The position numbers were made by a program, and so were the translations under genes. A model generated the notes under the pieces. That model saw nothing but the letters and a program-made list of their open reading frames with translations. It was not told where the DNA came from and did not search any database. From Caldifarciminota bacterium (GTDB taxonomy: Bacteria > Hydrothermota > Tepidihabitantia > Tepidihabitantales > Tepidihabitantaceae), in assembly GCA_020352555.1 (NCBI GenBank), contig CP070680.1:2332095-2372405 (forward strand): 40,311 nt of DNA, given 5' to 3'. Below are positions 127 to 32,124 of the stretch, piece after piece (the first letter of the stretch is position 1; each line of letters starts with the position of its first letter).

Positions 127-154
127 TTGACTTGCTTGGCCTTGCTCCTAAGAT
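127..154 (+). promoter_or_regulatory. Sigma70-type promoter of lptD, leaderless layout
   Basis: TTGACT (127-132), 16 bp, TAAGAT (149-154), then 5 nt to the GTG start at 160. Transcription should begin at or next to the start codon. TAG at 154-156, in frame with the gene, rules out a start further upstream. Confidence 0.65.
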
Positions 155-159
155 AGCCG

Positions 160-2463
160 GTGTTTGCACTGCTGGCGATGACGCTTGCAGCCCAGATCAC
201 GCCCTCTGCCGACAGCACGCCCGCTGATTCGACCCCTGCCGGTCTGACATTGCCCGCCTACCCGAAACAGGACTCCACAACCGGCGACACCGTGTACTAC
301 AGCGGCAAGAAGGTGACCTTCTACGCCCGGAAGGAGGAGGTAGTCCTGCTCGACAGCGCCTGGGTCAGGTACGGAGACATGACCGTGTACTCGGACTCGA
401 TACGGTACGACACCAAGATCCACCGACTCGCCGCATACGGCGACGTGCTCTTCACTTCCGCAGACCAGAACATCACCGGCGACCTGCTCCAGTACGACGT
501 GGACACCCGCAAAGGCATGATGCGGACCGCCCGGACCGAGCTGCCCGAGGGCTTCTTCGCGGCCGAGGAGGTGTGGCTGGTCGACGAAAAGGCGCTTAAT
601 GCCCGGCACGGCCACTACACGACCTGCGAGATGAACCGCCCTCACTACGACTTTTACGGCCCGAGGGTCAAGCTGCTGATGGACGACGTCGCCATAACCC
701 GTCCGGTCGTGTTCAGGACGTTCCGGTTCCCGGTCCTGGCAGCACCGTTCTGGCTCGTGCCGGTCGCGTCCGAGCGCAAGTCCGGACTCCTGCCGTTCAA
801 GGTCGGCAACTCGAGCCTCCAGGGCTGGTATGCGAAGAACATTGCCTACTACTGGGTCATCAACGACTATGCCGACGCCACGTTCACGCTCGACGTCATG
901 ACTCGGAAGGGCATCCAGCCCAGGTTCGAAGGCATCTACAAGGTCCTGCCGTTCGCCGACGGCCGGGTCGATGCCTCCTATGTCCAGGAATGGGACACCG
1001 GCCGCCGGCGCTACAACGTCGCAGGCCGGCACGAGTCAGAGCGATTTTTCCTGGGCACCCGGTTCGACGCCGAGGCCGACTTCGTGTCCGACGCCAGCTA
1101 CACCGGCGAATACGCCGAGGACGACATCCAGTGGATCAAGCGTGAAACCCAGTCACACGCCCAGATTCGGCGCGAAATCGGACGTGTCGGCAGCTTCTCG
1201 GCCGTGGCCAGCCGGACCGAGGATTTCCAGCACCACATCAACTACATGACCCTGCCTTCGGTCAACCTGTCGCTGCGTTCCTGGAAACTGCCGTTCAGCT
1301 GGACCGCGAGTCCGGGCTTGTCATTCTCCAACCTGGTCCAGACCTACACCGATTCTGCCGCGCAGGATACTGCCAGTGCCGAATTCCTCAGGGGCAGGGC
1401 CGGTCTCGGACTCGGCAGCCCCGAATACTCTCTCGGCCCGGCCGGCGGTCTGACCGTGTCGCACAGCATCGCCATTTCCGAGAGCCGCAGCTACTACAAC
1501 GACTCGCTGACGACCCGCACAACGCCGCTGACCAACGCATTCAGCCTGCAGGCAAGACAGAAGCCGCTCGGATTGCTCAACACCGACCAGAGGGTCTCGG
1601 TCGGGCAGACCAACCAGCTGTACGGGGGCAAAGACGCATCGACCAGGTACAACGCTTCTGCCGGAGCCGATATGACACTCTACCGGGTGTTCGGACTCGA
1701 AGCGTTCGGTTTCCACGGTCTGCTCCATACGACCCGGCCGGGCCTGAGTCTGGAGTACCGGCCCGAGGTCACTCCGCGTGCTTTCATCGGAACACCGGTC
1801 CTGCTCTCGCCCGAGTATGCCAGCCTCTCGATGACGCTCAGCAACGGGTTCGAGGCCAAGGCCGGGTCCTTGAGGACCAAGCACGACATCGGCCGGCTGG
1901 ACCTCGGGACCGCCTATGACCTGACTGCCGACAGCCTTAACCTGTCCCCTCTCTCGGCCCGTGCCCGACTCAATCCGCTGCCCGGACTGGGAAAGCTGAG
2001 GCTAAGTGTCGACGCCGACGCCAGCTTCGACTTCTACGAGACCCGCATCCGAGACGATTGGGGCGTCAATACGTCGCTTTCCTGGGAACAACGCTTCTGG
2101 CAGGCGCCGATTCGCGACTCCGCCCGGGACCAAACCCGCCATCCAATCCAGCGCGACCTGAAGTTCGAAGTCGGCCTGGGACACACGTTCAGCAAGAGTG
2201 CCAATATGGTCCGGGCCTCGGCCGCTCTATACGTCCCTGGGTGGAAGCTGACTCTGAGCAGCCTGGGCTACAACTTCAAGACCAAGGACCTGACCAACTA
2301 CAACATCACTATCTGGCGCGACCTGCACTGCTGGGAAGCCATTGTCTCTTTCGACCGGCTCGGCGAGACATGGAAGTACGATTTCGAAGTCCGCATCCGA
2401 AAGCTCACCGACATCAAGTTCGGCAAGGGCACGGTCCGGTCTTTCCTGCCGCTGCCCGAATAG
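160..2463 (+). CDS. lptD: LPS-assembly protein LptD (OstA) family, outer-membrane beta-barrel
   Basis: 767 residues from GTG 160. LptD, with lipoprotein LptE, inserts lipopolysaccharide into the outer leaflet of the outer membrane. After a short signal-like hydrophobic start, residues about 45-250 form an OstA/LptA-like beta-jellyroll (repeated D-x-Y-G/D-x-x-x-Y strands, then 'FRFPVLAAPFWLVPVASERKS'-type sequence, which is highly typical of LptD). The rest is strand-rich and barrel-like. There are exactly two cysteines, Cys156 (in YTTCEMN) and Cys724 (in LHCWEA). Their placement matches the E. coli Cys173-Cys725 inter-domain pair, so one of the two E. coli disulfides appears to be kept. It is the first gene of a unit with maf (3-nt gap). 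An in-frame ATG at 178 is an alternative start but would shorten the signal sequence. Confidence 0.85.
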   Translation: MFALLAMTLAAQITPSADSTPADSTPAGLTLPAYPKQDSTTGDTVYYSGKKVTFYARKEEVVLLDSAWVRYGDMTVYSDSIRYDTKIHRLAAYGDVLFTSADQNITGDLLQYDVDTRKGMMRTARTELPEGFFAAEEVWLVDEKALNARHGHYTTCEMNRPHYDFYGPRVKLLMDDVAITRPVVFRTFRFPVLAAPFWLVPVASERKSGLLPFKVGNSSLQGWYAKNIAYYWVINDYADATFTLDVMTRKGIQPRFEGIYKVLPFADGRVDASYVQEWDTGRRRYNVAGRHESERFFLGTRFDAEADFVSDASYTGEYAEDDIQWIKRETQSHAQIRREIGRVGSFSAVASRTEDFQHHINYMTLPSVNLSLRSWKLPFSWTASPGLSFSNLVQTYTDSAAQDTASAEFLRGRAGLGLGSPEYSLGPAGGLTVSHSIAISESRSYYNDSLTTRTTPLTNAFSLQARQKPLGLLNTDQRVSVGQTNQLYGGKDASTRYNASAGADMTLYRVFGLEAFGFHGLLHTTRPGLSLEYRPEVTPRAFIGTPVLLSPEYASLSMTLSNGFEAKAGSLRTKHDIGRLDLGTAYDLTADSLNLSPLSARARLNPLPGLGKLRLSVDADASFDFYETRIRDDWGVNTSLSWEQRFWQAPIRDSARDQTRHPIQRDLKFEVGLGHTFSKSANMVRASAALYVPGWKLTLSSLGYNFKTKDLTNYNITIWRDLHCWEAIVSFDRLGETWKYDFEVRIRKLTDIKFGKGTVRSFLPLPE

Positions 2464-2466
2464 GAC

Positions 2467-3042
2467 GTGGACCGGATTGTCCTCGCCTCGGACTCGCCCA
2501 GGCGCAGAGAGATACTGGCCCGGCTCGGAATCCGGTTTCGCGCCTTGTCCCCGCGCTGGAAAGAACCCGAACCCGCGGTCTCCGACGACCCGGTCCGCTA
2601 CGCCGAATCCGCTGCCAGAGCCAAGGCGCGTTCTGTCGTCGGGCTGGTGGACAGCTGCTTGGTCGTAGGCGTGGACACGGTGGTCGCGCTCGGCAAGACC
2701 ATACTCGGCAAGCCCAGAAACAGGAAGGACGCCGGACAGATGCTGCACAGGCTCTCCGGCCGGACACACACCGTCACGACCGGCGTGGCGGTCATCCGGA
2801 TCCCGGGTCGCAGGACATGGGTCGCGTCCGCCACATCCCGAGTGCATTTCAGAAGACTGAAGAGGGCTGAAGTCGAGGACTACCTCGCATCAGACGAGCC
2901 GTACGACAAGGCGGGTGCGTACGCGGTGCAGGGCCGTGCCGCCGCCTTCGTTGACTGGATGGAGGGGAGCTACCTGAACGTTGTCGGACTGCCTGCGACC
3001 GTCCTGCTGATGTTACTTGACAGGGCCGGCGCCCGGCTCTGA
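2467..3042 (+). CDS. maf: Maf-family nucleoside triphosphate pyrophosphatase
   Basis: 191 residues, starting at GTG 2467 just after the lptD stop (one codon between), so probably co-transcribed. Maf proteins hydrolyse non-canonical or excess NTPs (dTTP/UTP and modified nucleotides) to NMP and pyrophosphate in the cytoplasm. The N-terminal LASDSPRRREILARLG is the family phosphate-binding signature. VVGVDTVVALG carries the catalytic Asp. DKAGAYAVQG and the GSYLNVVGLP C-terminus are also conserved, and length is normal. The KAGAYAVQG motif fits the dTTP/UTP (YhdE-type) branch; substrate is inferred. The last 30 bp overlap the end of the convergent hypothetical gene. Confidence 0.92.
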   Translation: MDRIVLASDSPRRREILARLGIRFRALSPRWKEPEPAVSDDPVRYAESAARAKARSVVGLVDSCLVVGVDTVVALGKTILGKPRNRKDAGQMLHRLSGRTHTVTTGVAVIRIPGRRTWVASATSRVHFRRLKRAEVEDYLASDEPYDKAGAYAVQGRAAAFVDWMEGSYLNVVGLPATVLLMLLDRAGARL

Positions 3043-3720: not shown

Positions 3721-3744
3721 GACGATACCTGCCGCCTGCCTCCC

Positions 3745-3772
3745 AGTCTACAACAGCTCAGTCATGTGGCAA
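3745..3772 (-). promoter_or_regulatory. Putative sigma70-type promoter of the hypothetical gene ending at 3013
   Basis: On the minus strand TTGCCA (3772-3767), 16 bp, TAGACT (3750-3745), followed by a G-rich leader with GGAGG and the ATG at 3720. This one has a leader, unlike most promoters in the window. The -35 matches only four of six consensus positions. Confidence 0.35.
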
Positions 3773-3791
3773 GCCTTCTTGCCTCAGCAGA

Positions 3792-5924: not shown

Positions 5925-5937
5925 CCAGACTCCTTTC

Positions 5938-8234: not shown

Positions 8235-9294
8235 ACGACTTCTCCCTTTCATGCCCGTCGAAAACGTCCATCAGGCGGCCAACCAGCGCTGCCATTTCCG
8301 CCTCCCCCGGAAAAACGAAAAACCGGGTACTGACATGTTTTGCCCACCTCTTCAGCCCACGCACCAGCCGCTTCGAATTGGCCATTCCGCCGGTCAGCAC
8401 CACCGCGTCCACATGCCCTTTGCAGGTGACCGCGTACGCCCCGATCTCTCTCGCAATCCGGTAGACCAAGGCGTCGTAGACAAGCGCTGCCTGGACGTTG
8501 CCCCGGTCGACCAGCCGCTCGACCTCCTCGATTTCGTCGGTACCGAAGTGCGAAACCAGCCCTCCCCGCCTCTGCAGCAACTCCAGGACGTCGGCCTCGG
8601 TGTATCTGCCTGCGAAGCAGAGCGCCACGAGCGGTGCCGTCGGAAGTGTCCCGGCGCGCTGAGGCGAAAACGGACCCTCCTCGTTGGCATTGGTGGCATC
8701 CACCTGCCTGCCTCGGACGTGAGCCGCAACAGTGATCCCAGACCCGAGATGAACCACGATGAAGTTACAGCGCGAGTAGGGCTTGCCCAGTCGGCGGGCC
8801 GCGTTGTGGGCCACGGCACGACAGCTCAGCGCGTGGGACAACGCCTTCCTGGTCACGCCTTTCAGCCCGGTGACGCGCGAGATGCTCCAGAACTCGTCGG
8901 TCGATTCCGGGTCCACGAAGTACGCCGGTATGCCAAGCTCCTCAGAGAATTCGTGGCCGACCAGCGGACCCAGCAGCGACGGGTGGGTAGTCTGCACCCT
9001 CCCGCGCCTGATGTCGGTGACGACCCTGCGTGACGTCCGGTACACCCCTCCGGGCAGAGGCAGCAACGGTCCTCCCCGGCTTACGACGGCCCCCAGACTC
9101 CGAGGGTCGATGCCGGCCTGCTTCAGCACGCCATCCACCGCCTGCTTGCGGAGCCGGTACTGGTCGAGCACCAGTCTGTATCGTGACAACTCGGCCTGGG
9201 AATGTCTGACGACCTCGGACAGGACCTCACGACGGCCGCTGAACACCGCGACCTTGGTAGAACCGCCGCCCGGATTCAGGACCAAGATCAACAT
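8206..9294 (-). CDS. buk: Butyrate / branched-chain fatty-acid kinase (acetokinase family)
   Basis: 362 residues with start ATG 9294, 7 nt downstream of a promoter -10 box (leaderless); no ribosome site is visible. Butyrate kinases make ATP from an acyl phosphate and ADP. LILVLNPGGGSTKVAVF is the ASKHA phosphate-1 motif. GGPLLPLPGGVYR, FIVVHLGSGITVAAH, VDATNANEEGPFSP and VVLTGGMAN are further family signatures, and length is normal. It leads buk-iorA-iorB-hppA, so the likely job is substrate-level phosphorylation from acyl-CoA made by amino-acid fermentation. That needs a phosphotransacylase, not present in this window. The family also acts on isobutyrate and isovalerate; exact substrate is inferred. 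Confidence 0.9.
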   Translation of the reverse strand: MLILVLNPGGGSTKVAVFSGRREVLSEVVRHSQAELSRYRLVLDQYRLRKQAVDGVLKQAGIDPRSLGAVVSRGGPLLPLPGGVYRTSRRVVTDIRRGRVQTTHPSLLGPLVGHEFSEELGIPAYFVDPESTDEFWSISRVTGLKGVTRKALSHALSCRAVAHNAARRLGKPYSRCNFIVVHLGSGITVAAHVRGRQVDATNANEEGPFSPQRAGTLPTAPLVALCFAGRYTEADVLELLQRRGGLVSHFGTDEIEEVERLVDRGNVQAALVYDALVYRIAREIGAYAVTCKGHVDAVVLTGGMANSKRLVRGLKRWAKHVSTRFFVFPGEAEMAALVGRLMDVFDGHEREKSYEQEVAVRR

Positions 9295-9301
9295 GTCCAG
9301 C

Positions 9302-9329
9302 AGTGTATTCCAGACCCTCCGAGTGTCAA
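9302..9329 (-). promoter_or_regulatory. Sigma70-type promoter of buk-iorAB-hppA, leaderless layout
   Basis: Minus strand: TTGACA (9329-9324), 16 bp, TACACT (9307-9302), then 7 nt to the buk ATG at 9294. It separates the fermentation unit from purH upstream. Confidence 0.7.
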
Positions 9330-9915: not shown

Positions 9916-11117
9916 TACGCTCCGAACTTGCCGAGTCGCAGGGCGTGAGCCAGCAGTGTGTTCATTATCTGCTTGGCGCGGACGTAGCCGAGATTGCCCC
10001 TTGCGCAGGCACGCTCACCGAACTCGGCGATCTGTACCTGGGGCCTCACGTATCGGGAGTGCAGCAGCAGTGGAACCGAATGCCACGAGTGGCTCTTGAG
10101 CACCGCCGGGGTCGAGTGGTCGCCAGTAATGCACAGGACGTCGAACTGCATTTCGAGCAGGAAAGGCAGCACCTCCTCGTCAAACTGCTCGATAAGCTCG
10201 ACCTTGGCGTCGAAATCTCCGTCTTCGCCAGCCTTGTCGAATTCCTTGAAGTGCAGATAGAAAAAGTCGTACTCGGACACGTGCTCCCTCAGAGTGTCAA
10301 CTTCCTCAGCCCAGCTGCCGCCGGTCTCCAGCACCGTCATCCCGACAAGCCGCGCGATCCCGCGATACATTGGGTACGCGGCGACCGCCGCAGGCTTCAG
10401 ACCGAAGCGCTCCCCGAACTTCGGCAGTTCCGGCGGCTGAGCAAGCCCTCGCAGGAGAACCGCGTTCGCCTGCTGCCGGTCACTCAGCAGACTCTGACAT
10501 CGTCCCACGAACCGGTCGACAACCCGGGCCGCTTTGGCCGCTGCCGGCAGAAGCGCCTTGACCTTCTTAGGCGACAGCCCTTCGCGCAGAGGGTCGGTAC
10601 CGGTCAGACCCTCCTCGATCCCCGGCCCCCGGAACACAACCACAAAACGGTGTTCTTTCCCTGGTCGGATTATGACCTCGACGTCTTCGAGTTCGGAAAT
10701 CTCTTCCTGCAACTTGCGGCACAGCTCGGCGCAGAGCTCGGTTGGAATCCGACCGGCCCGGCGATCGACAACCACGCCGTTTTCGTCCACGGCAGCGAAG
10801 TTCGCGCGCGCGCAGAGGTCGGTGGGCTGGATTTCGAGACCTATACCCAGCGCTTCGAGTACACCCCTGCCGACCTGGTGGGCCAGCGGATCATACCCGA
10901 ACAGCGCAAGGTGGGCAGGTCCTGACCCGGGCGAGACGCCGACGTCTATCGGTACTGCCAGACCCAGCGACGATTGAGCGGCAAGCCGGTTCAGGTTGGG
11001 TGTCCATGCAGCCTCCAGTTCGGTGCGGTTGTCGCGCGGAACGCCACCGAGTCCGTCGAGCACGACCAGAAGAATCTTGCCGCCGCTTCCCGAAACCAGG
11101 GACTCAATCAGCTGCAC
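9915..11117 (-). CDS. apgM: 2,3-bisphosphoglycerate-independent phosphoglycerate mutase, archaeal (ApgM) type
   Basis: 400 residues. Interconverts 3- and 2-phosphoglycerate in glycolysis. KILLVVLDGLGGVP carries the metal-binding Asp. SPGSGPAHLALFGYDPL contains the catalytic Ser. FDVLCITGDHSTP holds the second metal site. It belongs to the alkaline-phosphatase superfamily. Start choice: GTG 11117 lies 6 nt after a -10 box, and the resulting N-terminus (MQLIESLVSGSGGKILL) fits the family. A longer reading from TTG 11141 would place the start inside the promoter spacer. The downstream purH start overlaps the stop codon by one base, so the two are coupled. Confidence 0.93.
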   Translation of the reverse strand: MQLIESLVSGSGGKILLVVLDGLGGVPRDNRTELEAAWTPNLNRLAAQSSLGLAVPIDVGVSPGSGPAHLALFGYDPLAHQVGRGVLEALGIGLEIQPTDLCARANFAAVDENGVVVDRRAGRIPTELCAELCRKLQEEISELEDVEVIIRPGKEHRFVVVFRGPGIEEGLTGTDPLREGLSPKKVKALLPAAAKAARVVDRFVGRCQSLLSDRQQANAVLLRGLAQPPELPKFGERFGLKPAAVAAYPMYRGIARLVGMTVLETGGSWAEEVDTLREHVSEYDFFYLHFKEFDKAGEDGDFDAKVELIEQFDEEVLPFLLEMQFDVLCITGDHSTPAVLKSHSWHSVPLLLHSRYVRPQVQIAEFGERACARGNLGYVRAKQIMNTLLAHALRLGKFGA

Positions 11118-11123
11118 GCGCTG

Positions 11124-11151
11124 ATGATAGATTCGGCTCAAGGCGAGTCAA
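11124..11151 (-). promoter_or_regulatory. Sigma70-type promoter of apgM-purH, leaderless layout
   Basis: Minus strand: TTGACT (11151-11146), 16 bp, TATCAT (11129-11124), then 6 nt to GTG 11117. It decides the apgM start codon. Confidence 0.7.
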
Positions 11152-11900: not shown

Positions 11901-12743
11901 TCAGCCTTCTACCTCTCCTGCTACCTGTTTCAGACTCCGAAGCCGCCGGCCGATGAGCCGGTCACGCATTTCGACGCGTTTCAGATGCCCGTTGGCGACG
12001 TTCACCTTGACCTCAAACTCGCCGTCCTCGCCTGCGGCTGCTGCACGGAGAGCGGCCTGGATTGACTCAAAGTAGTCCCTGATTTCTCCTGCTTGCTTGC
12101 CGAGTTCCTCGGCCACCTTCTCGGACGCGACGTAGAGCACGCTGAGCTTGTAGGCATTGCCGGTGACTGTTCTGGTTGCTCGGCCGACGTCGGCAACCCT
12201 GTTCTGGGTCCCAGCCACGTCAGCATCCGCGCTGTCCAACTGGGTTCGCAGTGGGGCAAGTAGGTCGAGCATGTCCTGCGCACGGTCCGGGCTCAATTCC
12301 TCCGCAAGGGTGACGTCGAGCACGAGGCTCCACCTGCTCAGTGCAGACCTGGCAAGGCGACCGATGTCATCCGCCGTCTCTGTTGGCGAGAACGACGCCT
12401 GTTCTGCGGCAGCGGGCTCAGGCAAGCTCGACACTGCCTTCGAAAGACCGGAATCCCCAGAAGTCTCTCGATTGGCAGAAGACCCGGGACCTGCAGCAGG
12501 AACCGCGCTGGCCTCGGCAGGGAGCTCGGACTCATCACTCTTCCTCAGAAGTCTGGGACGGTATGTAGCCAGCCAGACCAGCGCGACCGCCAGGCCACCC
12601 AGTGTCAGCCACGCGGCCAGAGCCCGTGTCTTGCGGATTCGGGCCTGCCTCGCCTTGTCCGGCTGGAACACCAGCTTGGGCACAGCATCAGTGCCGCTGC
12701 CTTGGTCGTCAACAGGCTTGCCGGCATCGGGCTGTTCATCCAT
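11901..12743 (-). CDS. Hypothetical single-pass membrane protein with coiled-coil-like domain
   Basis: 280 residues from ATG 12743. No family recognised. The N-terminal 40 residues are charged and probably cytoplasmic (Q-A-R-I-R-K-T-R just before the membrane). Residues about 43-60 form one transmembrane helix (AAWLTLGGLAVALVWLA). A Ser/Pro/Ala/Glu-rich linker follows to about residue 120. The rest is predicted helical, with heptad-like stretches (LDLLAPLRTQLDSADADVAG and onward), suggesting a periplasmic coiled coil. First gene of a two-gene unit with the lipoprotein (1-nt gap). The pair may work together at the envelope; this is inference from position only. Confidence 0.6.
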   Translation of the reverse strand: MDEQPDAGKPVDDQGSGTDAVPKLVFQPDKARQARIRKTRALAAWLTLGGLAVALVWLATYRPRLLRKSDESELPAEASAVPAAGPGSSANRETSGDSGLSKAVSSLPEPAAAEQASFSPTETADDIGRLARSALSRWSLVLDVTLAEELSPDRAQDMLDLLAPLRTQLDSADADVAGTQNRVADVGRATRTVTGNAYKLSVLYVASEKVAEELGKQAGEIRDYFESIQAALRAAAAGEDGEFEVKVNVANGHLKRVEMRDRLIGRRLRSLKQVAGEVEG

Positions 12744-12754
12744 GACCGCACTCT

Positions 12755-12783
12755 AAGCTACATCCGGGTCGCGCCTGTGTCAA
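12755..12783 (-). promoter_or_regulatory. Putative sigma70-type promoter, very short leader
   Basis: Minus strand: TTGACA (12783-12778), 17 bp, TAGCTT (12760-12755), then 11 nt to ATG 12743. The -35 is perfect; the -10 matches only three of six positions. Confidence 0.4.
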
Positions 12784-12796: not shown

Positions 12797-12824
12797 TTGA
12801 CACACAGAGGCCACCTGGTATCTT
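12797..12824 (+). promoter_or_regulatory. Sigma70-type promoter of plsY-gpsA-merR
   Basis: TTGACA (12797-12802), 16 bp, TATCTT (12819-12824). It lies 114 bp before plsY, so this unit has a real leader. That leader holds short frames starting at GTG 12829 and ATG 12834 (16 codons, stop TGA 12882-12884), at the same distance from the -10 as the leaderless genes of this window. No ribosome site is evident at plsY itself. Confidence 0.6.
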
Positions 12825-12938
12825 CGCAGTGCAATGCAGATTCTCCGCCGGGCTGCTATCACTCACCCCCACCGCAAGTTATGAGAGCACGCTCCAGCGC
12901 TGACAACGACAGAGCGTCCGACAGCCCCATCACATGAC

Positions 12939-15047: not shown

Positions 15048-15075
15048 TTGACGGATGTCCGACAGCCGATACAAT
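15048..15075 (+). promoter_or_regulatory. Sigma70-type promoter of the TPR/AAA+ regulator, leaderless layout
   Basis: TTGACG (15048-15053), 16 bp, TACAAT (15070-15075), then 8 nt to GTG 15084. The TTG at 15048 is in frame with the gene and looks like a start codon, but it is the first half of the -35 box. Confidence 0.7.
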
Positions 15076-15083
15076 CAGTCGAC

Positions 15084-17801
15084 GTGGGTCCTGCCGGTTC
15101 CGCCCGTGAACACATCGCTGTCTGCAGACGGCGGGTTCAGCGAGCACGCACACCGGCCAGGCAGCTCGCTGCCAAGGGTCGACTTGCTCGGGTCCTCAAA
15201 CCTGTCTCCGCAGACGAGGCCCGCTCAATCCTCAAGGACGTGGTCAAGCAGACCGTCGGCTTCCCGTCTCTTCTCTCGATCGCCGCTTCTGACCTGGCCG
15301 AGCTCGAAATCCTGCGGGGCGACCTCGACACCGCTGCAGAGCTGATCGAGACCGCTTTTCGGAATGCTCGCGCTGCAGGCTCCCCGCGCCGCGAGGCGCT
15401 CGCCTGGAATGCCCGGGGCATGCTGGCATTGAGCCGAGCCGACTTCGCCGAAGCCCGGAGCTGCTTTCAGCAATGCCTCAATGCCGCGCGTGAAGTCGAC
15501 GACCTGCTGACACTCCGCGTTGGCCTCATCAACCTCGCCAACGTCGCCGCCGAGCAGGGGCGGAGCATGGAGGCGGTCGACATGTACCGCGAGTGCCTGC
15601 GCCTAGACGAGCAGTCAGCCAACCCGCTTGCCCGCGCGATCTCGATCTACAACCTGGGCTGGGCCCTGATGCGGACCGGCCGATGGGAGGAAGCCGCAGA
15701 GAATCTGTACCGGACTGTCGAGATATCCGAGCAGTACGGCTACCTCAAGCTCCAGCTCAAGGCGGCCAGCTGCCTCGGCAGCCTGTACCTGAAGCGGAAC
15801 CAGCTCGACAAGGCTGAACTCCAGTTCCAGAGCATCGTCGACGCCGAAACACCGGAACCCCGTTTCGTGCTGACTCTGGTCAACGCGCTCGCCAACCTTG
15901 GCCGCACCAGGCTTCGTTCCGGAAACCTGGCGGCCGGCCGCCGCGCGTTCGACCGGGCGCTGGCGCAGTGCGACCGCTCGGTCACGCCCAACCAGCGCGC
16001 CGGAGTGCTGCTTGGACTGGCAGAGCTCGCCGTTGCCGAGCGCCGGTTCGACGAGGCCCGTCGACACATCGATGTTGCCGCAGAACTCCTGGGAAGCCCG
16101 ATTCCCCCTCTGGATGAGGGAGAACTGAGCCGTGTCCGGGCGCTGATGAGCGTCGAAACCGGGGATACGAAAGCGGCCGCCGAGGACTTCGCGCGTGCCG
16201 CCGGGCTGTTTGCCCGTGTCGGGGACGGCTACGAGCTTGCCGAACTCAGGCTGCGCTGGGGCAAATGGCTGGCCGAGTCGGGAGACTGGCTTGGCGCGAC
16301 CCCGCTGCTTGAAGCCGCTTCTGCCGCGATGCGCCGCCTATCGGTCGTTGCCGAAGCGGAAGAAGCCGGCCGGCTGCTCTTCGAATTGCGGAGACAGGCG
16401 GACGCCGAATCCGCCCTGCTCGAGGCACTGTCCAATCTGCCGGGTCTGGGCCTCGAACCTGTGGCGTGTCTCGAGAGCGTACTCGATATGGCTGTCCGGG
16501 CGGTGGGTTGCGACTCGGGTGCGGTGCTCCTCCGGGACAGGCCGGTCGCATTGAGGGGTACGCCCGACCTGAAGAAAGTGCGCGCGGCTGATGCAGCGCG
16601 GCCGTCCGGCGACCCAACCAGCCTCGCCATCGCGGTCAAAGGCGTCGGTGACGTCCACGGCCTCGTGTGGCTGCAGTCGCACGAAGGTCGAGTTGCCCGC
16701 CTCAGTCCCAGAGTCCTGGACCGCATTGCCTGGGCAGCCGCCGAACCTCTCACCCGGCTGTCGGAACTGCCCAATCTGTTCACCTACGACCGGGTTCAGA
16801 TCAAAGGACTCTGCTATCGCGGGGTGATCGGCTCAGATCCGGTGATGCTCGACAACCTCAAAGTAGTAAGCCAGGCAGCCGGAACAGCCCTGCCGATCCT
16901 GATCCGGGGAGAGAGCGGAACCGGAAAGGAACTCATCGCTCGTGCGGTCCACGACTCCGGCCCGAGGCGCGACCGGCAGTTCATGGCCATCAACTGCTCG
17001 GCGATTCCTGAGGGTCTACTCGAGGCCGAGTTCTTCGGGGTCGAGAAGGGCGCGGCGACGGGCGTGTCGCGCCGAGTGGGCAAGTTCGAAGCCGCCGACC
17101 GCGGCACCGTCTTCCTGGATGAGATTGGCGACATGAGCCCGAGACTCCAGGCCCGACTGCTGCGCGTCCTGCAGGATGGTTCGTTCCATCGCGTCGGCGG
17201 GAACAAGCCTGTGGCCGTGGACGTACGCGTTGTCGCGGCAACGAACCAAGACCTGGAGCGACTCATAGGCGGTGACAGGTTCCGCTCCGACCTCTACTAC
17301 CGCCTCAACGCCTGCGAGCTGACCCTGCCTCCGTTGCGCGAACGGGCCCAAGACATCCCGGTGTTTGTCAACTACTTCATCGCCCGCAGCAACCAGGAGT
17401 TCGGCCGCAGAGTGCAGGGCGTTGCCCGTGACTGCATTCGCTGCTTTGAGGCCTACGACTGGCCCGGCAACATCCGCGAGCTCCGCCATGTCATCGAGCA
17501 GTCGGTTCTGCTTGCCCGTGGGCCTGAAGTCACCGTCGACGACCTGCCACGGCACATCCGCCGACTCTGCGTGCTGGTGCAGACGCTGAAACCGGGTGAA
17601 GACCGGAAGGCTCGACGCGAAGCCCGGCTCAGACTGGAGGCCCAGAGTCAGCGCCAACTCATACTCGACAGCCTGCAGAAGACGGACTGGCAGGTCTCCA
17701 AGGCAGCGCGGCTTGCCGGATACAGCCGGTCTCAGTTCTACCGCCTGATGGGCAGACACGGCATTCGAGGTGCTCGCGAGCACCGGAATGTCAACGAGTA
17801 G
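15084..17801 (+). CDS. TPR-GAF-like-AAA+ (NtrC-type)-Fis HTH regulator with altered GAFTGA loop
   Basis: 905 residues from GTG 15084. Residues about 30-430 are TPR-like helical pairs (for example ALAWNARGMLALSRADFAEA and LGSLYLKRNQLDKAELQFQS), a likely sensing scaffold. Residues about 440-560 look GAF-like. The AAA+ domain follows, with Walker A GESGTGKE (about 609-616), Walker B TVFLDEIGD and the arginine-finger segment FRSDLYYRLN. The C-terminus is a Fis-type helix-turn-helix (SKAARLAGYSRSQFYRLMGR). The loop that contacts sigma54 reads GAATGV (656-661) instead of GAFTGA. Loss of its Phe normally prevents sigma54 activation, so the protein may act by another route or have changed partner. 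No receiver domain is present. Confidence 0.9.
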   Translation: MGPAGSAREHIAVCRRRVQRARTPARQLAAKGRLARVLKPVSADEARSILKDVVKQTVGFPSLLSIAASDLAELEILRGDLDTAAELIETAFRNARAAGSPRREALAWNARGMLALSRADFAEARSCFQQCLNAAREVDDLLTLRVGLINLANVAAEQGRSMEAVDMYRECLRLDEQSANPLARAISIYNLGWALMRTGRWEEAAENLYRTVEISEQYGYLKLQLKAASCLGSLYLKRNQLDKAELQFQSIVDAETPEPRFVLTLVNALANLGRTRLRSGNLAAGRRAFDRALAQCDRSVTPNQRAGVLLGLAELAVAERRFDEARRHIDVAAELLGSPIPPLDEGELSRVRALMSVETGDTKAAAEDFARAAGLFARVGDGYELAELRLRWGKWLAESGDWLGATPLLEAASAAMRRLSVVAEAEEAGRLLFELRRQADAESALLEALSNLPGLGLEPVACLESVLDMAVRAVGCDSGAVLLRDRPVALRGTPDLKKVRAADAARPSGDPTSLAIAVKGVGDVHGLVWLQSHEGRVARLSPRVLDRIAWAAAEPLTRLSELPNLFTYDRVQIKGLCYRGVIGSDPVMLDNLKVVSQAAGTALPILIRGESGTGKELIARAVHDSGPRRDRQFMAINCSAIPEGLLEAEFFGVEKGAATGVSRRVGKFEAADRGTVFLDEIGDMSPRLQARLLRVLQDGSFHRVGGNKPVAVDVRVVAATNQDLERLIGGDRFRSDLYYRLNACELTLPPLRERAQDIPVFVNYFIARSNQEFGRRVQGVARDCIRCFEAYDWPGNIRELRHVIEQSVLLARGPEVTVDDLPRHIRRLCVLVQTLKPGEDRKARREARLRLEAQSQRQLILDSLQKTDWQVSKAARLAGYSRSQFYRLMGRHGIRGAREHRNVNE

Positions 17802-19075: not shown

Positions 19076-19191
19076 CCGTTTGGTTTGGGGCAGGCCGGCC
19101 CGCAACCAGCCTACATTCAATTATCAACCCCCTTGGCCCCGATGTCAAGCTTGTTTTCGCATTGTCTTCTGCCCCCCACGTTCAGTCCCGC

Positions 19192-19219
19192 TGGACAGTA
19201 GAGCCGGCTGTTCTACAAT
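19192..19219 (+). promoter_or_regulatory. Sigma70-type promoter of the MATE transporter gene, leaderless layout
   Basis: TGGACA (19192-19197), 16 bp, TACAAT (19214-19219), then 6 nt to TTG 19226. Confidence 0.65.
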
Positions 19220-19225
19220 TGCGTC

Positions 19226-20665
19226 TTGAAATCCCCGCACCAATCCCCGCCTGGGACGTCCGGAATCGCGAACCAGGAGTTCTCGCGTTCGGCCCGAATG
19301 GGGTTCCAGCCGGTCGGCCGTCTGCTGGTCAGCTTCTCCCTGCCTGCGCTGGTCGGCATGGTGGTCAACGCCACCTACAACATCGTCGACACAGGGTTCG
19401 TCGGCCGCCTCGGTCACGAGGCGATCGCAGGCCTGACCGTAGTCTGGCCGCTTCAGCTGATCATGATCGCCCTGTCGGTCGGCGTCGGTGTCGGCGCCAA
19501 CTCGCTGATAGCCAGACGCCTCGGCGCCCGCGACCCGGAGCAGGCCAACCACGCCGGTGCCCAGGCCCTGCTCCTGGCAGTGGTTTCAGGCCTGTTGATG
19601 ATGGCCATTGTCCTGGGCTTCACCGACCCCATCCTGCGTCTGCTCGGGGCGCAGCAAGACATCCTCCCGTTTTCACGGGCCTACATCACGACCATTGTCT
19701 GGTTCGCACCGCTTGTCTTCCTGCCAATGACCTGCAACAACCTCATCCGCGCCGAAGGCAACCCGCTCCTGTCCATGGTAATCATGGGAGCATCGGCCCT
19801 CATCAACATCGGGCTCGACCCGCTGTTCATCTTCGGCATCGGCCCGTTTCCGACCCTGGGTGTTCAGGGTGCGGCGATCGCGACAGTCATCGCACGCGCC
19901 GTGGCCGTGGCCCTGTATCTCGGCTACTTCGCGAGCAGCTCAAGCGGCTACCGGTTCCGCTTTCGCCAGTTCATTCCTGCGCCGCGGGTTTGGGGTCGAA
20001 TCTATGCGGTCGGTCTGCCATCGATGGCGATCCAGCTCAGCGGGAGCGTGGTCGCCGGGGTCGCCAACAACATCGTCGGCGGCTTCGGGTCCCTCGCCCT
20101 GGCCGGCTTTGGGGTCATGTTCCGGCTCTTCGCTTTCGGCTTCATGCCCTGCCTCGGCATCAACCAAGGCGTGCTGCCGCTGGTCGGTTTCAACTACGGT
20201 GCGCGCAAAATGGGTCGGGTCCGGGAAGTCGTGCAGAAGGGAGCGCTCTCGGCCACGGTCGTCACGACCCTGTTCACCATCCTTTTCACCGCGATTCCGT
20301 ACCTGTTGGTGGGGCTTTTCAACCGAAACCCCGAGTTCATCGCCTTGGCCGGACGCGGCCTACGCATCACCTCGGTCGCCTTCTTCGGTGTCGGTTCTGC
20401 TGTCGTCTTCACCGGCTTCTTCCAAGGCATCGGTAAGGCGGTACCAGCGATGTTCCTCTCCCTGACCCGTCAGCTCATCTTCTACCTGCCCGGCATCCTT
20501 GTCCTGCCCAGGCTGTTCGGCCTGGACGGGTTCTGGACCGCGATCCCGCTGTCAGATGGCCTGGCGTTTGCCGCATCGCTGACCTGGACTGCGTGGATGT
20601 TCCGCAAGCTGGGCGTCCCGCTCTTCAGACGCGGCACAGCGTCTGTGCCCGGGCCGGCTCCCTAG
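19226..20665 (+). CDS. MATE-family multidrug/Na+ (or H+) antiporter
   Basis: 479 residues from TTG 19226, placed 6 nt after a promoter -10; ATG 19298 is an alternative that would remove 24 hydrophilic residues. Inner-membrane efflux transporter with about 12 helices in two homologous halves. MGFQPVGRLLVSFSLPALVGMVVNATYNIVDTGFVGRLG is the typical MATE start (helix 1 and the N-lobe cation pocket). The second half begins near AVGLPSMAIQLSGSVVAG and has MPCLGINQGVLPLVGFNYGARK, also typical. It is closest by eye to the NorM/MepA-like bacterial group. It converges on era with a 9-bp gap. Substrate unknown. Confidence 0.92.
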   Translation: MKSPHQSPPGTSGIANQEFSRSARMGFQPVGRLLVSFSLPALVGMVVNATYNIVDTGFVGRLGHEAIAGLTVVWPLQLIMIALSVGVGVGANSLIARRLGARDPEQANHAGAQALLLAVVSGLLMMAIVLGFTDPILRLLGAQQDILPFSRAYITTIVWFAPLVFLPMTCNNLIRAEGNPLLSMVIMGASALINIGLDPLFIFGIGPFPTLGVQGAAIATVIARAVAVALYLGYFASSSSGYRFRFRQFIPAPRVWGRIYAVGLPSMAIQLSGSVVAGVANNIVGGFGSLALAGFGVMFRLFAFGFMPCLGINQGVLPLVGFNYGARKMGRVREVVQKGALSATVVTTLFTILFTAIPYLLVGLFNRNPEFIALAGRGLRITSVAFFGVGSAVVFTGFFQGIGKAVPAMFLSLTRQLIFYLPGILVLPRLFGLDGFWTAIPLSDGLAFAASLTWTAWMFRKLGVPLFRRGTASVPGPAP

Positions 20666-23396: not shown

Positions 23397-24518
23397 TCAG
23401 CTTTCTATTATCTCGACGTTCGCCCGCGGCAGCAACACCCTGGTCCGGTCTTCGAGTTCGACCTCAAGCACGCGGGCCTTGGCCTCGGATTCGATCTCCT
23501 GGAGCTCGACCGGGAGCTGCGTCACCTTGCCGATCTGCCCGAAGTTGGGCTGGCGGATGATACGGACCGCCATGCCGAGTTCGAGGCCGCCCTCGGCCTT
23601 GCTCTGCATGACCTCGCCGTCACCCTCTTCCTGGGGCACGATGACCTCGGGTCGGATCACGCCCGCCCTGATCTGGGTCGCACCGTTGACCGACGCCATC
23701 CGGCCCTCGAGTGACTTCAGCAGGTCGAATGTCTTCTGCGCCATCCGCATGCGGCCGAAACCCTCGGTCACGACCAGGGTCAGGCCTTTCTTTTCCGACC
23801 CGGTGATGGCGACGCCGATGTCGTAGCCCAGGAACTTCCGGAGTGTCGAGTCCTCGACTCCGCCCGCAACAACGGCCCTGGCACCGACCTTGAGCGCCCG
23901 GTCGATCGCCTCATGCGTTATCAGCGAGCCGCCGATCACGACCTTGCCCTCGCAACTCTCGTCCAGCTCCTTGCCGGTCAGGACCGCTTCCGCCGAATCC
24001 ACGACCGTCTTGAGTTCGCCCCGGACTTCGCCCCCGACCCCGAAGATGCCCTGGACCAGGCTCGCCTCGGTCTCGACCACCACACCTTCGTTCGGGATGA
24101 CTTCGGCGACCCGGCCGCGGACATAGGCATCGACCTGAACCGGCTGCGGCGGTTCCCTGAGTATCACCTGTCCGGTCACGCTGGAAACGCTCTCGACCGC
24201 ACCCTTGATCGGCGATTTCACCTCGGACTTGAACAGCCCGAACAGACCCTTTGACCGCGCGACCGCTTCGTTCTTCTCGACCGCGTCCCCGGCCTTCTTC
24301 AGCATCATCCCGGGCACGTCCTCCGGCGGCACACCCAGCAGCCCGCCGACGTTCAGGGTCGTGACATTGCCGGGCAGCTCGGTGCGTGCGACGACATCGT
24401 CGCCGCTGACCCGCTGCCCCTTCTCGGCCTTGGTTTCTCCGGGAAGCGGCAGCCGCCGTTCTTTCCTGACCACGGTCCGGGCGGTGACCTTGAGACCCGG
24501 CGTGTACGCATGCGCCAT
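23397..24518 (-). CDS. Conserved hypothetical protein with barrel-sandwich and KOW-like domains
   Basis: 373 residues from ATG 24518. No named family recognised. Residues about 1-140 look like a barrel-sandwich hybrid, with RnfC/biotinyl-like turns (VARTELPGNV, SPIKGAVESVSSVTGQV). The middle has GGSLITHEAIDRALKVGARAVVAGG and LTLVVTEGFGRMRM, resembling uncharacterised proteins that I recall from other deep-branching phyla. The C-terminus, GMAVRIIRQPNFGQIGKVTQLP, fits a KOW motif, as in NusG-type RNA-binding proteins. No transmembrane segment. It heads the operon with the PorV-like barrel, accA and era. Function unknown. Confidence 0.75.
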   Translation of the reverse strand: MAHAYTPGLKVTARTVVRKERRLPLPGETKAEKGQRVSGDDVVARTELPGNVTTLNVGGLLGVPPEDVPGMMLKKAGDAVEKNEAVARSKGLFGLFKSEVKSPIKGAVESVSSVTGQVILREPPQPVQVDAYVRGRVAEVIPNEGVVVETEASLVQGIFGVGGEVRGELKTVVDSAEAVLTGKELDESCEGKVVIGGSLITHEAIDRALKVGARAVVAGGVEDSTLRKFLGYDIGVAITGSEKKGLTLVVTEGFGRMRMAQKTFDLLKSLEGRMASVNGATQIRAGVIRPEVIVPQEEGDGEVMQSKAEGGLELGMAVRIIRQPNFGQIGKVTQLPVELQEIESEAKARVLEVELEDRTRVLLPRANVEIIES

Positions 24519-24525
24519 TGTCGTC

Positions 24526-24553
24526 AGGATATTTGAGGCGCCGACACTGTCAA
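24526..24553 (-). promoter_or_regulatory. Sigma70-type promoter of the KOW-porV-accA-era operon, leaderless layout
   Basis: Minus strand: TTGACA (24553-24548), 16 bp, TATCCT (24531-24526), then 7 nt to ATG 24518. Confidence 0.7.
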
Positions 24554-24584
24554 GAACACCCGGAGGAAGACCGAGAAACGTGCC

Positions 24585-24612
24585 TTGACTACAGCAGCCG
24601 TTGTCTTACGAT
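24585..24612 (+). promoter_or_regulatory. Sigma70-type promoter, divergent partner of the 24526 promoter
   Basis: TTGACT (24585-24590), 16 bp, TACGAT (24607-24612), then 8 nt to ATG 24621. The two divergent -35 boxes are 31 bp apart. Confidence 0.6.
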
Positions 24613-24620
24613 GGGCGAGC

Positions 24621-24734
24621 ATGGAACCCGCGTCCGAACCTCTGGAGCCGGCAATCCAGGCAGCAGCCGGCAACATCCAGGATAGCGGGTTCTGGTTCTC
24701 GACCAGGGAGTTTTCGCTCGAGTCCGAAAGGTAG
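24621..24734 (+). CDS. Small ORF of 37 codons, probably leaderless
   Basis: ATG 24621 to TAG 24732-24734. The protein starts MEPASEPLEPAIQAAAGNIQ and ends FSLESER; it is acidic, soluble and resembles nothing I know. Support: the start lies 8 nt after a -10 box in the layout used by other genes here. Oddities: it contains a direct repeat (AGCCGGCAA and ATCCAGG, about 19 bp apart) and inverted repeats, notably CTGGT/ACCAG (24692-24706) and TCGCT/AGCGA (about 24712-24737), so the stretch could instead be a structured leader of the ferritin-like gene 77 nt downstream. Confidence 0.4.
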   Translation: MEPASEPLEPAIQAAAGNIQDSGFWFSTREFSLESER

Positions 24735-25315: not shown

Positions 25316-25453
25316 CCTCGCCCCTGAAGCAGGAGACGTCGGCACCATCCACTCCGGTGCAATCACACCGCTCTTGCCTCGGTTGGCGGCTTCCCGGTGC
25401 AACCTGGGTTTCCAGCCCCTTCCGGTCCGGCCTCAATATTCCGCACACACCTA

Positions 25454-25480
25454 TTGACACTCCAAGGGAGAGACTATAAT
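25454..25480 (+). promoter_or_regulatory. Sigma70-type promoter of the C25 protease unit
   Basis: TTGACA (25454-25459), 15 bp, TATAAT (25475-25480); an alternative -10, TAATAA at 25477-25482, gives 17 bp. Both boxes are perfect consensus, and the TATAAT ends 6 nt before the TTG at 25487. The preceding 25316-25453 stretch holds nothing recognisable. Confidence 0.75.
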
Positions 25481-25486
25481 AATACG

Positions 25487-29331: not shown

Positions 29332-29348
29332 CACAACCGAGACAGACG

Positions 29349-29377
29349 CGAGGGGCGGGACGGTGTCCTGCCCCTCG
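29349..29377. terminator. Hairpin between convergent genes, likely transcription terminator
   Basis: CGAGGGGCGGGAC and GTCCTGCCCCTCG form a 13-bp stem (one G-T wobble) with a GGT loop, between the protease stop (29331) and the glycosyltransferase stop (29397). No long U tract follows on either strand, as expected in GC-rich DNA. Confidence 0.6.
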
Positions 29378-29396
29378 GCTTCCTGGCAGCGACCTG

Positions 29397-31331
29397 TCAG
29401 CGCAACTGGTCGAGCGCCTGCCGCGCCTTGCCAAAAGACGGGTCGAGCCTGAGTATCTTCTGCCACCGGGCATGCGCCTCCGCCCTCCTGTTCTCATAGT
29501 AGTCGAGCAGTCCCAGATGGAAATGGGCCGGTACGAATACCGGGTCGACCTCAAGCGCCAGGACATAACAGCTCCGGGCCTGTTCGAGGTCTCCTCTGGA
29601 CAGCGCCGTGTTCCCGAGATTGTTCCACCCCTGAACCGAGTACGGATCCAGCGCAACCGCCCTCTGGAAGCAGATCTCAGCCGAGTCGAGCTTCCCGATC
29701 GCAGCGAAGACGTTGCCCAGTGTGCCGAAGCCATCCGGCATGCCCGGTTCACGCCTTACCGCGGCACGGGCCGCCTGACCGGCCTCATCAGGCCGGCGCA
29801 GCGACATGAGGACCGAAGCTTCCAGGGTCAGCAGGTTGTAGGCTGAATCCTGCTGCAGGCCCTTTCTGAGCTCGGCCAGCGCCGCACCCGACTTGCCGGT
29901 CTTGTACATGGCTTCCGCGACCATGAAGTGGTTCTGGGACGGATCTGCCCGTCCGACATCGATCAGCGGCGCATTGGCGTAGCCGAACCCGAGCACGAAC
30001 ACCAGCAGTCCGAGCGCAAGCCGGCGACCGCGCGAGCGCCACAGCTCGGCCGCACCGCAGACAGCAAGCAGAACAAGAGGCGGTATCAGCCCCATCCTGA
30101 ACCTGGCCGTAACGAAGAACAGGACGAAGCTGAAGCCGTAGCTGACGACGAAGACGTAGACCGGCAAGAGCCGCTTCCGCGATCGCCAGGTAAGCACGAC
30201 TCCGACCAGCGACAATGGCAGAAGCAGCCCGAAAGGAAACTTCAGCCACGTTGTCCGAAACACCAGCCGGTCCAGCCAGGTGTAACGCTTGAAGAAGTAG
30301 ACATCCCGATTGTTGGAAACCTCGGCCCCACTGGTCAGGACGAGCAGCTTGCGCAGCAGCAGCCGGATGCCCTGCAAAGGCCGCTCACGCCAGAACTCAA
30401 GCCCCCGGCTCAGCCAGTAGCGGTCGATGTCAGCTCCCCGCAACCGTCGCCCCAGCGCGACCTCGGCCTGCGACTTCACGTCGTTGAACCCTCCCCACCA
30501 GCTCGCTCTGGTACCGGGCAGAATCGCGGTCACCCCGTCCGATTCCGGGTTGTTGCCGATGTAGAAGTTCGTCCCGGCCTGCCAGGCGATCGGCACGAAC
30601 CGCCGGCCCACGACGTAGTTGCGGACCGTAACCGGCAGTATCACCATCGCCGCGGCGCCGAGCAGCACCAGTATCCGCTTCCAGGCGCGACGCCGGTACC
30701 GCAGAAACAGCCAGACAACCAGGCCGGCAAGGAAAGCCAGCACGTTCGGCCGGGTGATTGCCGCCAGTCCGAACACCAGCCCGGGCAGATACCATTGCCG
30801 GTCCTGGTCGCAGCTTCGATAGAGCAGAATCAGACCGAACAGGAGCAGGAACAGCAGCAGAACCGGAATCAGCAGCTCGGCGTCGAAGTACACGGCCATC
30901 GGATACGCCGCCATCACAAAGCCGGTGATCCGCGCGTTCCGCTCAGCGCTTGGGGATACCGACAGGCCCGCGTCCTGCCGCTCGGCCAGTATCCGCCGGG
31001 CCAGCAGGTACATCAGCCCGCAGCTGAGGCCGCCGACTACCGCCTGGACAATCCTTACCGACAGCAGGTCGGCGCCCGCAAGGCGGTAGATCAGGCCGAG
31101 GAAATAGGGGTACAGCGGTGCCCTGAAGAAAGCGTCGGAGATGAACTCCGTTCCCGAAGCCACGGCCAGCGCCCACCGGTGATGGTAGAGCGAGTCCATC
31201 TGCGGCGAGTTGAAGAGCGGGTCGCTTCCCCGGGACTGCAGGATATATGCGAGTCGCACGACAAACCCGGCAGTGGCGATGATTCCGAACCAGTGGGCAG
31301 ACCGAGGTCTCGGTCCGCTGGCTACTGACAC
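29397..31331 (-). CDS. GT39-like membrane glycosyltransferase with C-terminal TPRs
   Basis: 644 residues from GTG 31331, 6 nt after a promoter -10 (leaderless). Residues about 1-460 are a multi-pass membrane domain of about ten helices. RLAYI, MDSLYHHRWALAVASG and FFRAPLYPYFLGLIYRLAG fit the PMT/ArnT-like family, in which the early-loop acidic residue (Asp in MDSLYHH) is catalytic. It would transfer a sugar from a polyprenyl-phosphate donor to protein or lipid on the periplasmic side. Residues about 480-644 are TPRs (NLGNTALSRGDLEQARSCYVLALEVDP, LGNVFAAIGKLDSAEICFQ), probably exposed and used for partner binding. Acceptor unknown. It is divergent from yggS, with both promoters in 95 bp. Confidence 0.75.
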   Translation of the reverse strand: MSVASGPRPRSAHWFGIIATAGFVVRLAYILQSRGSDPLFNSPQMDSLYHHRWALAVASGTEFISDAFFRAPLYPYFLGLIYRLAGADLLSVRIVQAVVGGLSCGLMYLLARRILAERQDAGLSVSPSAERNARITGFVMAAYPMAVYFDAELLIPVLLLFLLLFGLILLYRSCDQDRQWYLPGLVFGLAAITRPNVLAFLAGLVVWLFLRYRRRAWKRILVLLGAAAMVILPVTVRNYVVGRRFVPIAWQAGTNFYIGNNPESDGVTAILPGTRASWWGGFNDVKSQAEVALGRRLRGADIDRYWLSRGLEFWRERPLQGIRLLLRKLLVLTSGAEVSNNRDVYFFKRYTWLDRLVFRTTWLKFPFGLLLPLSLVGVVLTWRSRKRLLPVYVFVVSYGFSFVLFFVTARFRMGLIPPLVLLAVCGAAELWRSRGRRLALGLLVFVLGFGYANAPLIDVGRADPSQNHFMVAEAMYKTGKSGAALAELRKGLQQDSAYNLLTLEASVLMSLRRPDEAGQAARAAVRREPGMPDGFGTLGNVFAAIGKLDSAEICFQRAVALDPYSVQGWNNLGNTALSRGDLEQARSCYVLALEVDPVFVPAHFHLGLLDYYENRRAEAHARWQKILRLDPSFGKARQALDQLR

Positions 31332-31337
31332 GGATGC

Positions 31338-31365
31338 AGTATCGACAGCGAGCAGTCTGCGTCAA
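31338..31365 (-). promoter_or_regulatory. Sigma70-type promoter of the GT39-like gene, leaderless layout
   Basis: Minus strand: TTGACG (31365-31360), 16 bp, GATACT (31343-31338), then 6 nt to GTG 31331. Divergent from the yggS promoter at 31391. Confidence 0.55.
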
Positions 31366-31390
31366 GTACCCCTGCCCGCCGGCAGGCGGC

Positions 31391-31418
31391 TTGATTGGCC
31401 TGTGGCGGCTTCTATAAT
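31391..31418 (+). promoter_or_regulatory. Sigma70-type promoter of yggS, leaderless layout
   Basis: TTGATT (31391-31396), 16 bp, perfect TATAAT (31413-31418), then 7 nt to TTG 31426. Confidence 0.7.
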
Positions 31419-31425
31419 CAGACCC

Positions 31426-32124
31426 TTGTCTTCAGCCGAATCTGTCGCCGCGAATCTCGGGCACCTTGAGGAACGCATAAGGGCGGCATGCGACCGTGCC
31501 GGCCGCAGCCGCGATGAAATCAGACTCGTTGCCGTTACCAAGACCCGGTCACCAGCGGATATCATGGCCGCAGCGGCATCCGGCATCAGTGACATCGGCG
31601 AGAACCGGGTTCAGGAAGCTGCAGGCAAGAAACCACTAGTCACCGCCCCGCTCGTCTGGCACCTCGTTGGCCATTTGCAGCGCAACAAGGCCCGCAAGGC
31701 TCTCGACATTTTCTCGGTGTTCCACAGTGTCGACTCGGTCCGGATCGCCCGGGAACTCCAGCGCCGCTGTCAACAGACCGGAACCGAGGTCAAGGTCCTG
31801 GTCGAAGTCAACACGTCCGGCGAACCGACCAAGTTCGGCGTTGACCCGGAACTGGTCGCCCCGCTGGTCGAGCAGGTGCTGGACCAGAGTCTGCTGGAGC
31901 TTGTCGGCCTGATGACGATCGGCCCTGGCTGGGCTGTCCAAGACCCTGAAGCTTCCCGCCCGTGTTTCCGGGCTCTTGCCCGGCTGGCGCAGCGCACCCG
32001 GCAGCAGTTCGGAATCCCGTTGCCCCAGCTGTCGATGGGCATGAGTGCCGACTACGAGCAGGCCATCGAAGAAGGCGCAACCATCGTCAGGATCGGCACC
32101 GCCATATTCGGCCCCCGCGACTGA
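31426..32124 (+). CDS. yggS: YggS/PROSC-family pyridoxal-phosphate homeostasis protein
   Basis: 232 residues from TTG 31426, chosen because it gives the family length and lies 7 nt after TATAAT; no ATG or GTG is available before the conserved core. YggS binds PLP in a TIM-barrel without known enzymatic activity and buffers the cofactor and 2-oxoacid/amino-acid pools. LVAVTKTRS contains the PLP-binding Lys. HLVGHLQRNKAR, VNTSGEPTKFGVDP, GLMTIGP and LSMGMSADYEQAIEEGATIVRIGTAIFG are family signatures. A metallopeptidase-like gene follows with a 2-nt gap. Confidence 0.93.
   Translation: MSSAESVAANLGHLEERIRAACDRAGRSRDEIRLVAVTKTRSPADIMAAAASGISDIGENRVQEAAGKKPLVTAPLVWHLVGHLQRNKARKALDIFSVFHSVDSVRIARELQRRCQQTGTEVKVLVEVNTSGEPTKFGVDPELVAPLVEQVLDQSLLELVGLMTIGPGWAVQDPEASRPCFRALARLAQRTRQQFGIPLPQLSMGMSADYEQAIEEGATIVRIGTAIFGPRD

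Follow-up and report, generated by a model that had tools for sequence, protein, structure and literature searches.

How does a gene begin when its promoter ends almost on its start codon? The question is raised by a 40,311-nucleotide stretch of the genome of a Caldifarciminota bacterium (contig CP070680.1, positions 2,332,095 to 2,372,405; hereafter the window), in which a preliminary description had noted nine transcription units that share a TTGAC-like -35 box, a 16-base-pair (bp) spacer, a -10 box and, 5-8 nucleotides (nt) further on, a start codon. Verification of every site letter by letter upholds this shared layout: the spacer is 16 bp in nine of nine, and the gaps between -10 box and start are, in window order, 5, 7, 6, 8, 6, 7, 8, 6 and 7 nt. 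Three elements deviate from consensus: the -35 boxes of the MATE gene (TGGACA) and yggS (TTGATT), and the -10 box of the GT39-like gene (GATACT). The nine sites are given below as -35 box, spacer, -10 box, gap and start codon.

127 to 162, + strand: predicted leaderless promoter and GTG of lptD, TTGACT-16-TAAGAT-5-GTG
9292 to 9329, - strand: predicted leaderless promoter and ATG of buk (acetokinase family), TTGACA-16-TACACT-7-ATG
11115 to 11151, - strand: predicted leaderless promoter and GTG of apgM, TTGACT-16-TATCAT-6-GTG
15048 to 15086, + strand: predicted leaderless promoter and GTG of a TPR/sigma-54-activator-like regulator (from domain matches), TTGACG-16-TACAAT-8-GTG
19192 to 19228, + strand: leaderless-type promoter and TTG of a MATE transporter, TGGACA-16-TACAAT-6-TTG
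24516 to 24553, - strand: predicted leaderless promoter and ATG of a KOW-like gene (no Pfam match), TTGACA-16-TATCCT-7-ATG
24585 to 24623, + strand: promoter and ATG of a 37-codon open reading frame (24621-24734) 5' of gene 24812, TTGACT-16-TACGAT-8-ATG
31329 to 31365, - strand: predicted leaderless promoter and GTG of a GT39-like/TPR gene (from domain matches), TTGACG-16-GATACT-6-GTG
31391 to 31428, + strand: predicted leaderless promoter and TTG of yggS, TTGATT-16-TATAAT-7-TTG

We propose that these are very probably ordinary sigma-70-type promoters, set so that transcription begins at or near the start codon. Leaderless or near-leaderless transcription is well supported as a main mode of expression in this organism, beside leaders that carry a Shine-Dalgarno (SD) sequence, because of four lines of sequence evidence: the enrichment of the layout, the fraction of promoters with a near start, the contrast in SD sequences and conservation in orthologs. 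Transcription typically starts about 7 nt past the -10 box. RNA polymerase would thus read TTGACN-16-TANNNT and begin on, or no more than about 3 nt before, the first base of the ATG or GTG; the ribosome would initiate on a message without an SD leader, while many operon-internal and longer-leader genes would carry an SD sequence instead. We infer leaderlessness from geometry, reading frame, SD absence and conservation, and with it the actual transcript start, the mechanism of translation and the housekeeping sigma factor as the reader of these sites.

The genome is a single contig of 3,261,444 bases, and the enrichment across it that the preliminary description had suggested looking for is borne out: the layout in its strict form (TTGAC-N17-TANNNT-N5..8-NTG) is matched 246 times, and its reversal 5 times. 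A spacer peak, permuted words and shifted promoters agree with this result. These further controls were made in an 840-kb sample of the genome (G000) that comprised the window and 40 other 20-kb stretches, and in which 674 genes were called from coding potential alone. Counts of TTGACN-Nk-TANNNT in this sample peak at k=16 with 139, as against 55 at k=17, 26 at k=18 and 3-11 at every other k from 10 to 24; the reversed control yields 3-6 matches for k between 13 and 20. Six permuted -35 words, combined with the same -10 box and an in-frame start at gap 5-8, yield 0 matches against 41 for the real word.

A promoter matrix trained on this sample, with its threshold set at about 10% control matches, recovers 327 promoters, 193 with a spacer of 16 bp and 99 with 17. 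The first in-frame start lies at gap 5-9 in 78 of the 248 promoters upstream of called genes (31%); sliding the promoters by -40, -13, +13 and +40 leaves 7, 3, 19 and 15 near starts (1-8%). The layout had been put forward as a main mode, and it stands as one such mode: it covers about a third of the confident gene-upstream promoters, with SD-led leaders alongside. The same association emerges from gene starts set by coding potential only. TANNNT is found at gap 5-9 in 40 of 320 first genes, and among these 40 a -35 box at 16/17 bp matches at least 5/6 in 30 and at least 4/6 in 33; at five other spacer pairs the corresponding counts are 0-1 and 0-3 of 40.

A 5-nt SD core precedes 0 of the 78 leaderless genes (a 4-nt core, 1%), as against 45% of leadered genes (leader of 20-200 nt, n=117) and 27% of operon-internal genes (n=209); a downstream control gives 3-4%. 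The 3' end of the 16S gene reads GGATCACCTCCTTTC, with the anti-SD intact, and the organism seems to run two start modes side by side, leaderless and SD-led.

Codon usage at the near position separates ATG and GTG from the rest. In-frame at gap 5-9 of the 840-kb sample there are 41 ATG where 8.5 are expected from positions further on, and 32 GTG where 8.6 are expected; TTG occurs 7 times against 3.0 and CTG is depleted (4 against 17.2), while the control codons ATT and GTC occur 6 times against 3.0 and 8 times against 11.5. The preliminary description had regarded both GTG and TTG as unusual for leaderless messages. For GTG this does not hold, since by these counts it is clearly a likely leaderless start in this genome, and in mycobacteria leaderless GTG works about as well as ATG (PMC4633059). 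TTG would indeed be unusual, and as a general leaderless start it is doubtful: because its excess is no larger than that of ATT, we put it forward for the MATE gene alone. Mycobacteria show TTG and CTG to be ineffective at the leaderless position and prefer a cytosine at -1 (PMC4633059). In a second genome of the same class (G008, 41% GC), ATG is the codon at 40 of 41 leaderless starts.

The best case for treating promoter and start codon as a single unit comes from conservation in orthologs. Orthologs were sought across the order (within the family for MATE), the window's own copies being left out, and scored for TTGNNN (at least 4/6), a 16/17-bp spacer and TANNNT at gap 5-10. The layout is present in 23 of 23 orthologs of the KOW-like gene, 16 of 24 of yggS, 15 of 24 of apgM and 13 of 24 of lptD, where dinucleotide shuffles predict 0.33, 0.20, 0.21 and 0.13, respectively; control windows at gaps 15-20, 25-30, 35-40 and 45-50 give 0-3 matches. 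In 21 of 24 loci the ATG of the KOW-like gene maps to the first residue. In yggS, whose orthologs mostly start with ATG or GTG, promoter and start are shifted together relative to the protein, our own start lying four codons further out. For buk, the closest relatives in named genomes were two metagenome-assembled genomes (MAGs) of candidate division WOR-3, 67 and 68% identical, in a scan that may omit records very near our own genome; both loci share the layout at the corresponding position (gaps 9 and 7). On the basis of these relatives we take the organism to belong to WOR-3.

In the strict test 2 of 6 family orthologs of the MATE gene show the layout, against 0.01 expected; by eye, 5 of 6 have a -10 box, exactly 6 nt and then TTG (four) or CTG (one), which with our own makes six genomes. 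Their -35 boxes are weak in some cases and none is recognisable in L260. No stop codon falls between the near codon and a later ATG, and the sequences share F-x-[RK]-[SA] ahead of that ATG; the open frame and these residues favour translation from the near codon. The later ATG, 17-32 codons downstream, is itself common to all six sequences (our own and five others), so the MATE gene could instead have a leader and start there.

Several observations weigh against a leaderless reading, this shared ATG among them. The strict test fails in 8 of 24 yggS, 9 of 24 apgM, 11 of 24 lptD and 4 of 6 MATE orthologs; ATT, an unusual start, is in excess at the near position; and the absence of SD sequences from the leaderless class is partly forced by geometry, because the -10 box occupies the position of the SD. 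In 200 kb of E. coli K-12, taken as a negative control, the strict matches number 5 (16 bp) and 1 (17 bp) against 9 and 7 for the reversed pattern, too few for a matrix and so without bearing on the leaderless reading. Finally, coding potential alone chose a later start in four of the eight window genes called (15240, 19298, 31259 and 31564), and a gap of 5-9 leaves room for a leader of up to about 3 nt, which would make some genes near-leaderless.

This latitude in the gap bears on the alternative that survives best, namely that the genes are not truly leaderless and have a leader of 1-4 nt, the polymerase choosing an upstream purine and the ribosome using a short-leader initiation route. Gaps of 7-9 are also common (28 of the 78), and the TTG starts begin with a pyrimidine, which is a poor initiating base. 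Gaps of 5 and 6 nonetheless make up 50 of the 78. The nucleotide just ahead of the start codon is C in 40 and G in 26 of these 78 (G000), and T in 28 of 41 in G008, which leans only mildly towards a pyrimidine at -1 and a purine at +1, the usual pattern of a transcription start. We consider such short leaders unlikely as the general case, though they deserve serious weight. A good deal less probable is that the promoters are real and translation begins at later codons, the near start being a coincidence and the leaders ordinary. The later starts preferred by coding potential and the later ATG shared by the MATE sequences are what this proposal can draw on, and it must contend with in-frame ATG at 4.8 times and GTG at 3.7 times background at gap 5-9 and not at 0-4 or 10-14, with the simultaneous drop in CTG, with the joint movement of promoter and start in yggS, and with the KOW-like ATG at residue 1. 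That the nine sites are chance matches to a permissive pattern, picked by a searching reader from among 14 window promoters with three off consensus, is refuted by the genome-wide count, the permuted -35 words and the ortholog conservation, and we give it almost no credence.

The leaderless starts proposed here belong to a type that is already known, and for this phylum we found no report of it; their own features are an intact -35 box at a 16-bp optimum and a split between 16- and 17-bp spacers within the phylum. A full-text literature search, which had most subscription journals outside its reach, returned no report of leaderless genes for WOR-3 or Stahlbacteria (another name for WOR-3). As the preliminary description had stated, leaderless transcripts are familiar from other phyla, including Actinobacteria and Deinococcus-Thermus (PMC3160421), and leaderless expression on this scale is chiefly a feature of these two groups and of archaea (PMC3160421). 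Our signal is of the same class as the TA-led genes of Zheng et al. (2011; PMC3160421). A -10-like box about 10 bp before the start, the lack of an SD and conservation of the layout in orthologs mark such leaderless genes, and all three are seen here. That survey found 207 of 953 bacterial genomes positive, the mean share of genes of this type being 19.2% for Actinobacteria and 39.4% for Deinococcus-Thermus; in the accessible part of its text WOR-3 is not among the groups named and the word 'spacer' does not occur (PMC3160421).

In Deinococcus-Thermus, leaderless expression is a common pattern by reporter tests and RNA sequencing (PMC12340547), and in many genes there, as here, the -10 box stands some 6-7 bp ahead of the open reading frame. 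Those promoters mostly lack a classical -35 box (PMC12340547), in contrast to the 33 of 40 first genes that carry one in our sample. The leaderless RTG genes of mycobacteria likewise combine ATG and GTG at the transcript start, a position that is predicted here, with the absence of an SD (PMC4633059). Unlike mycobacteria, where TTG and CTG are ineffective (PMC4633059), the MATE gene has these codons 6 nt past the -10 box in six genomes, the later ATG also being kept. The canonical -35 box and the 16-bp optimum further set the genes described here apart from the mycobacterial ones. The leaderless reading would widen the spread of such expression to a diverse uncultured phylum, with an intact -35 box, in 62%-GC and 41%-GC genomes alike. 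It also has a bearing on annotation: gene callers blind to the signal may choose a start that lies downstream of the real one, as a call by coding potential alone appears to have done for four window genes. GeneMarkS-2 is reportedly a caller that models the leaderless signal.

Four patterns, combining a spacer of 16 or 17 with a gap of 5-8 or 21-24, were surveyed in 60 genomes across the phylum; the tally shows that the spacer optimum varies by family. All six families of our own class (f1-f6) favour 16 bp, f4 slightly, as do f7, f8, f13, f14, f15, f22 and f26 (f13 and f15 weakly); 17 bp is favoured in f9, f10, f11, f12, f16, f18, f20, f21, f23, f24 and f28, and f17 and f25 are near even. In f19 and f27, TTGAC-TANNNT matches at either spacer are not above, or are about equal to, the reversed control, and these families may use a different promoter consensus. 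E. coli-type sigma-70 promoters have a 17-bp optimum, which is absent from G000 and G008 and present in G037 (f12): strict counts at 16 and 17 bp are 139 and 55, 88 and 14, and 14 and 40, respectively. The matrix promoters of G008 have a 16-bp spacer in 128 of 139 cases and, where they lie upstream of genes, a leaderless layout in 41 of 96; those of G037 have a 17-bp spacer in 38 of 39 cases and the leaderless layout in 3 of 35.

Preference for 16 or 17 bp correlates with the near/far ratio across the 24 families that have 100 sites or more (Spearman 0.71), a lead rather than a test because the families are not independent. Ratios of 1.47-1.62 in two 17-bp families, f11 and f24, and in the even f17 argue against a tight link, as does the ratio of only 1.15 in f22, a 16-bp family. 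The survey thus offers a natural comparison between 16-bp families with strong leaderless signals and 17-bp families, most of which have weaker ones. We raise only tentatively the idea that the phylum's housekeeping promoter switched between a 16- and a 17-bp optimum, with 16-bp lineages relying more on leaderless genes, so that polymerase geometry and start mode co-evolved, and that UUG (and CUG) may be accepted at the 5' end, as they are not in mycobacteria. It is the excess of TTG, equal to that of ATT, and the high leaderless index of some 17-bp families that lower its standing.

The primary sigma factor was considered as a cause of this putative switch and rejected. RpoD has a match in 58 of the 60 genomes (none in G041 and G052); 50 loci were taken and 48 aligned (G023 and G054 left out). 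Alignment columns occupied in less than about 40% of the sequences were removed, and by eye no indel or residue among the 48 tracks the spacer class. Gaps in the RpoD core are of single residues only, in G005, G011 and G057, all 17-bp genomes, and are absent in other 17-bp genomes. The best RpoD match of f8 is unusually divergent, scoring 248-294 bits where most other families reach about 333 or higher.

Within the window the matrix finds 14 promoters, a recovery that is partly by construction, as the window belongs to the training sample. The nine sites first described are the near-gene subset of these, 9 of 14; the remaining five matrix matches are as follows.

12741 to 12783, - strand: near-leaderless promoter (predicted) and ATG 12743, TTGACA-17-TAGCTT-11-ATG
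12797 to 12824, + strand: promoter TTGACA-16-TATCTT, back to back with the one at 12783; next called gene at 12939
19120 to 19148, - strand: promoter-like TTGACA-17-GATAAT, without a clear target gene
25454 to 25480, + strand: promoter TTGACA-15-TATAAT, with a leader of about 100 nt to ATG 25588
34378 to 34406, - strand: promoter TTGACC-17-TATCAT, with a leader of about 90 nt to ATG 34281

For the next called genes, the promoters at 25454, 34406 and 12797 imply leaders of about 90-110 nt. An ATG does lie 9 nt past the -10 box of the promoter at 12797; its frame runs for 16 codons only (12834-12884). The small open reading frame at 24621-24734, whose promoter is of the leaderless type, has a match in one of the searched relatives, L203 (46% over 24 amino acids), where it precedes a homolog of gene 24812. 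We considered whether the divergent unit accompanies the KOW-like gene in a conserved way and rejected the idea: apart from our own locus, only 4 of 24 KOW loci have a near-start promoter facing the other way, and the small open reading frame matches that one relative only. Three divergent promoter pairs stand back to back in the window, 12783(-)/12797(+), 24553(-)/24585(+) and 31365(-)/31391(+), with the starts of their -35 boxes 14-32 bp apart; in two of the three, 94-102 bp separate the two start codons.

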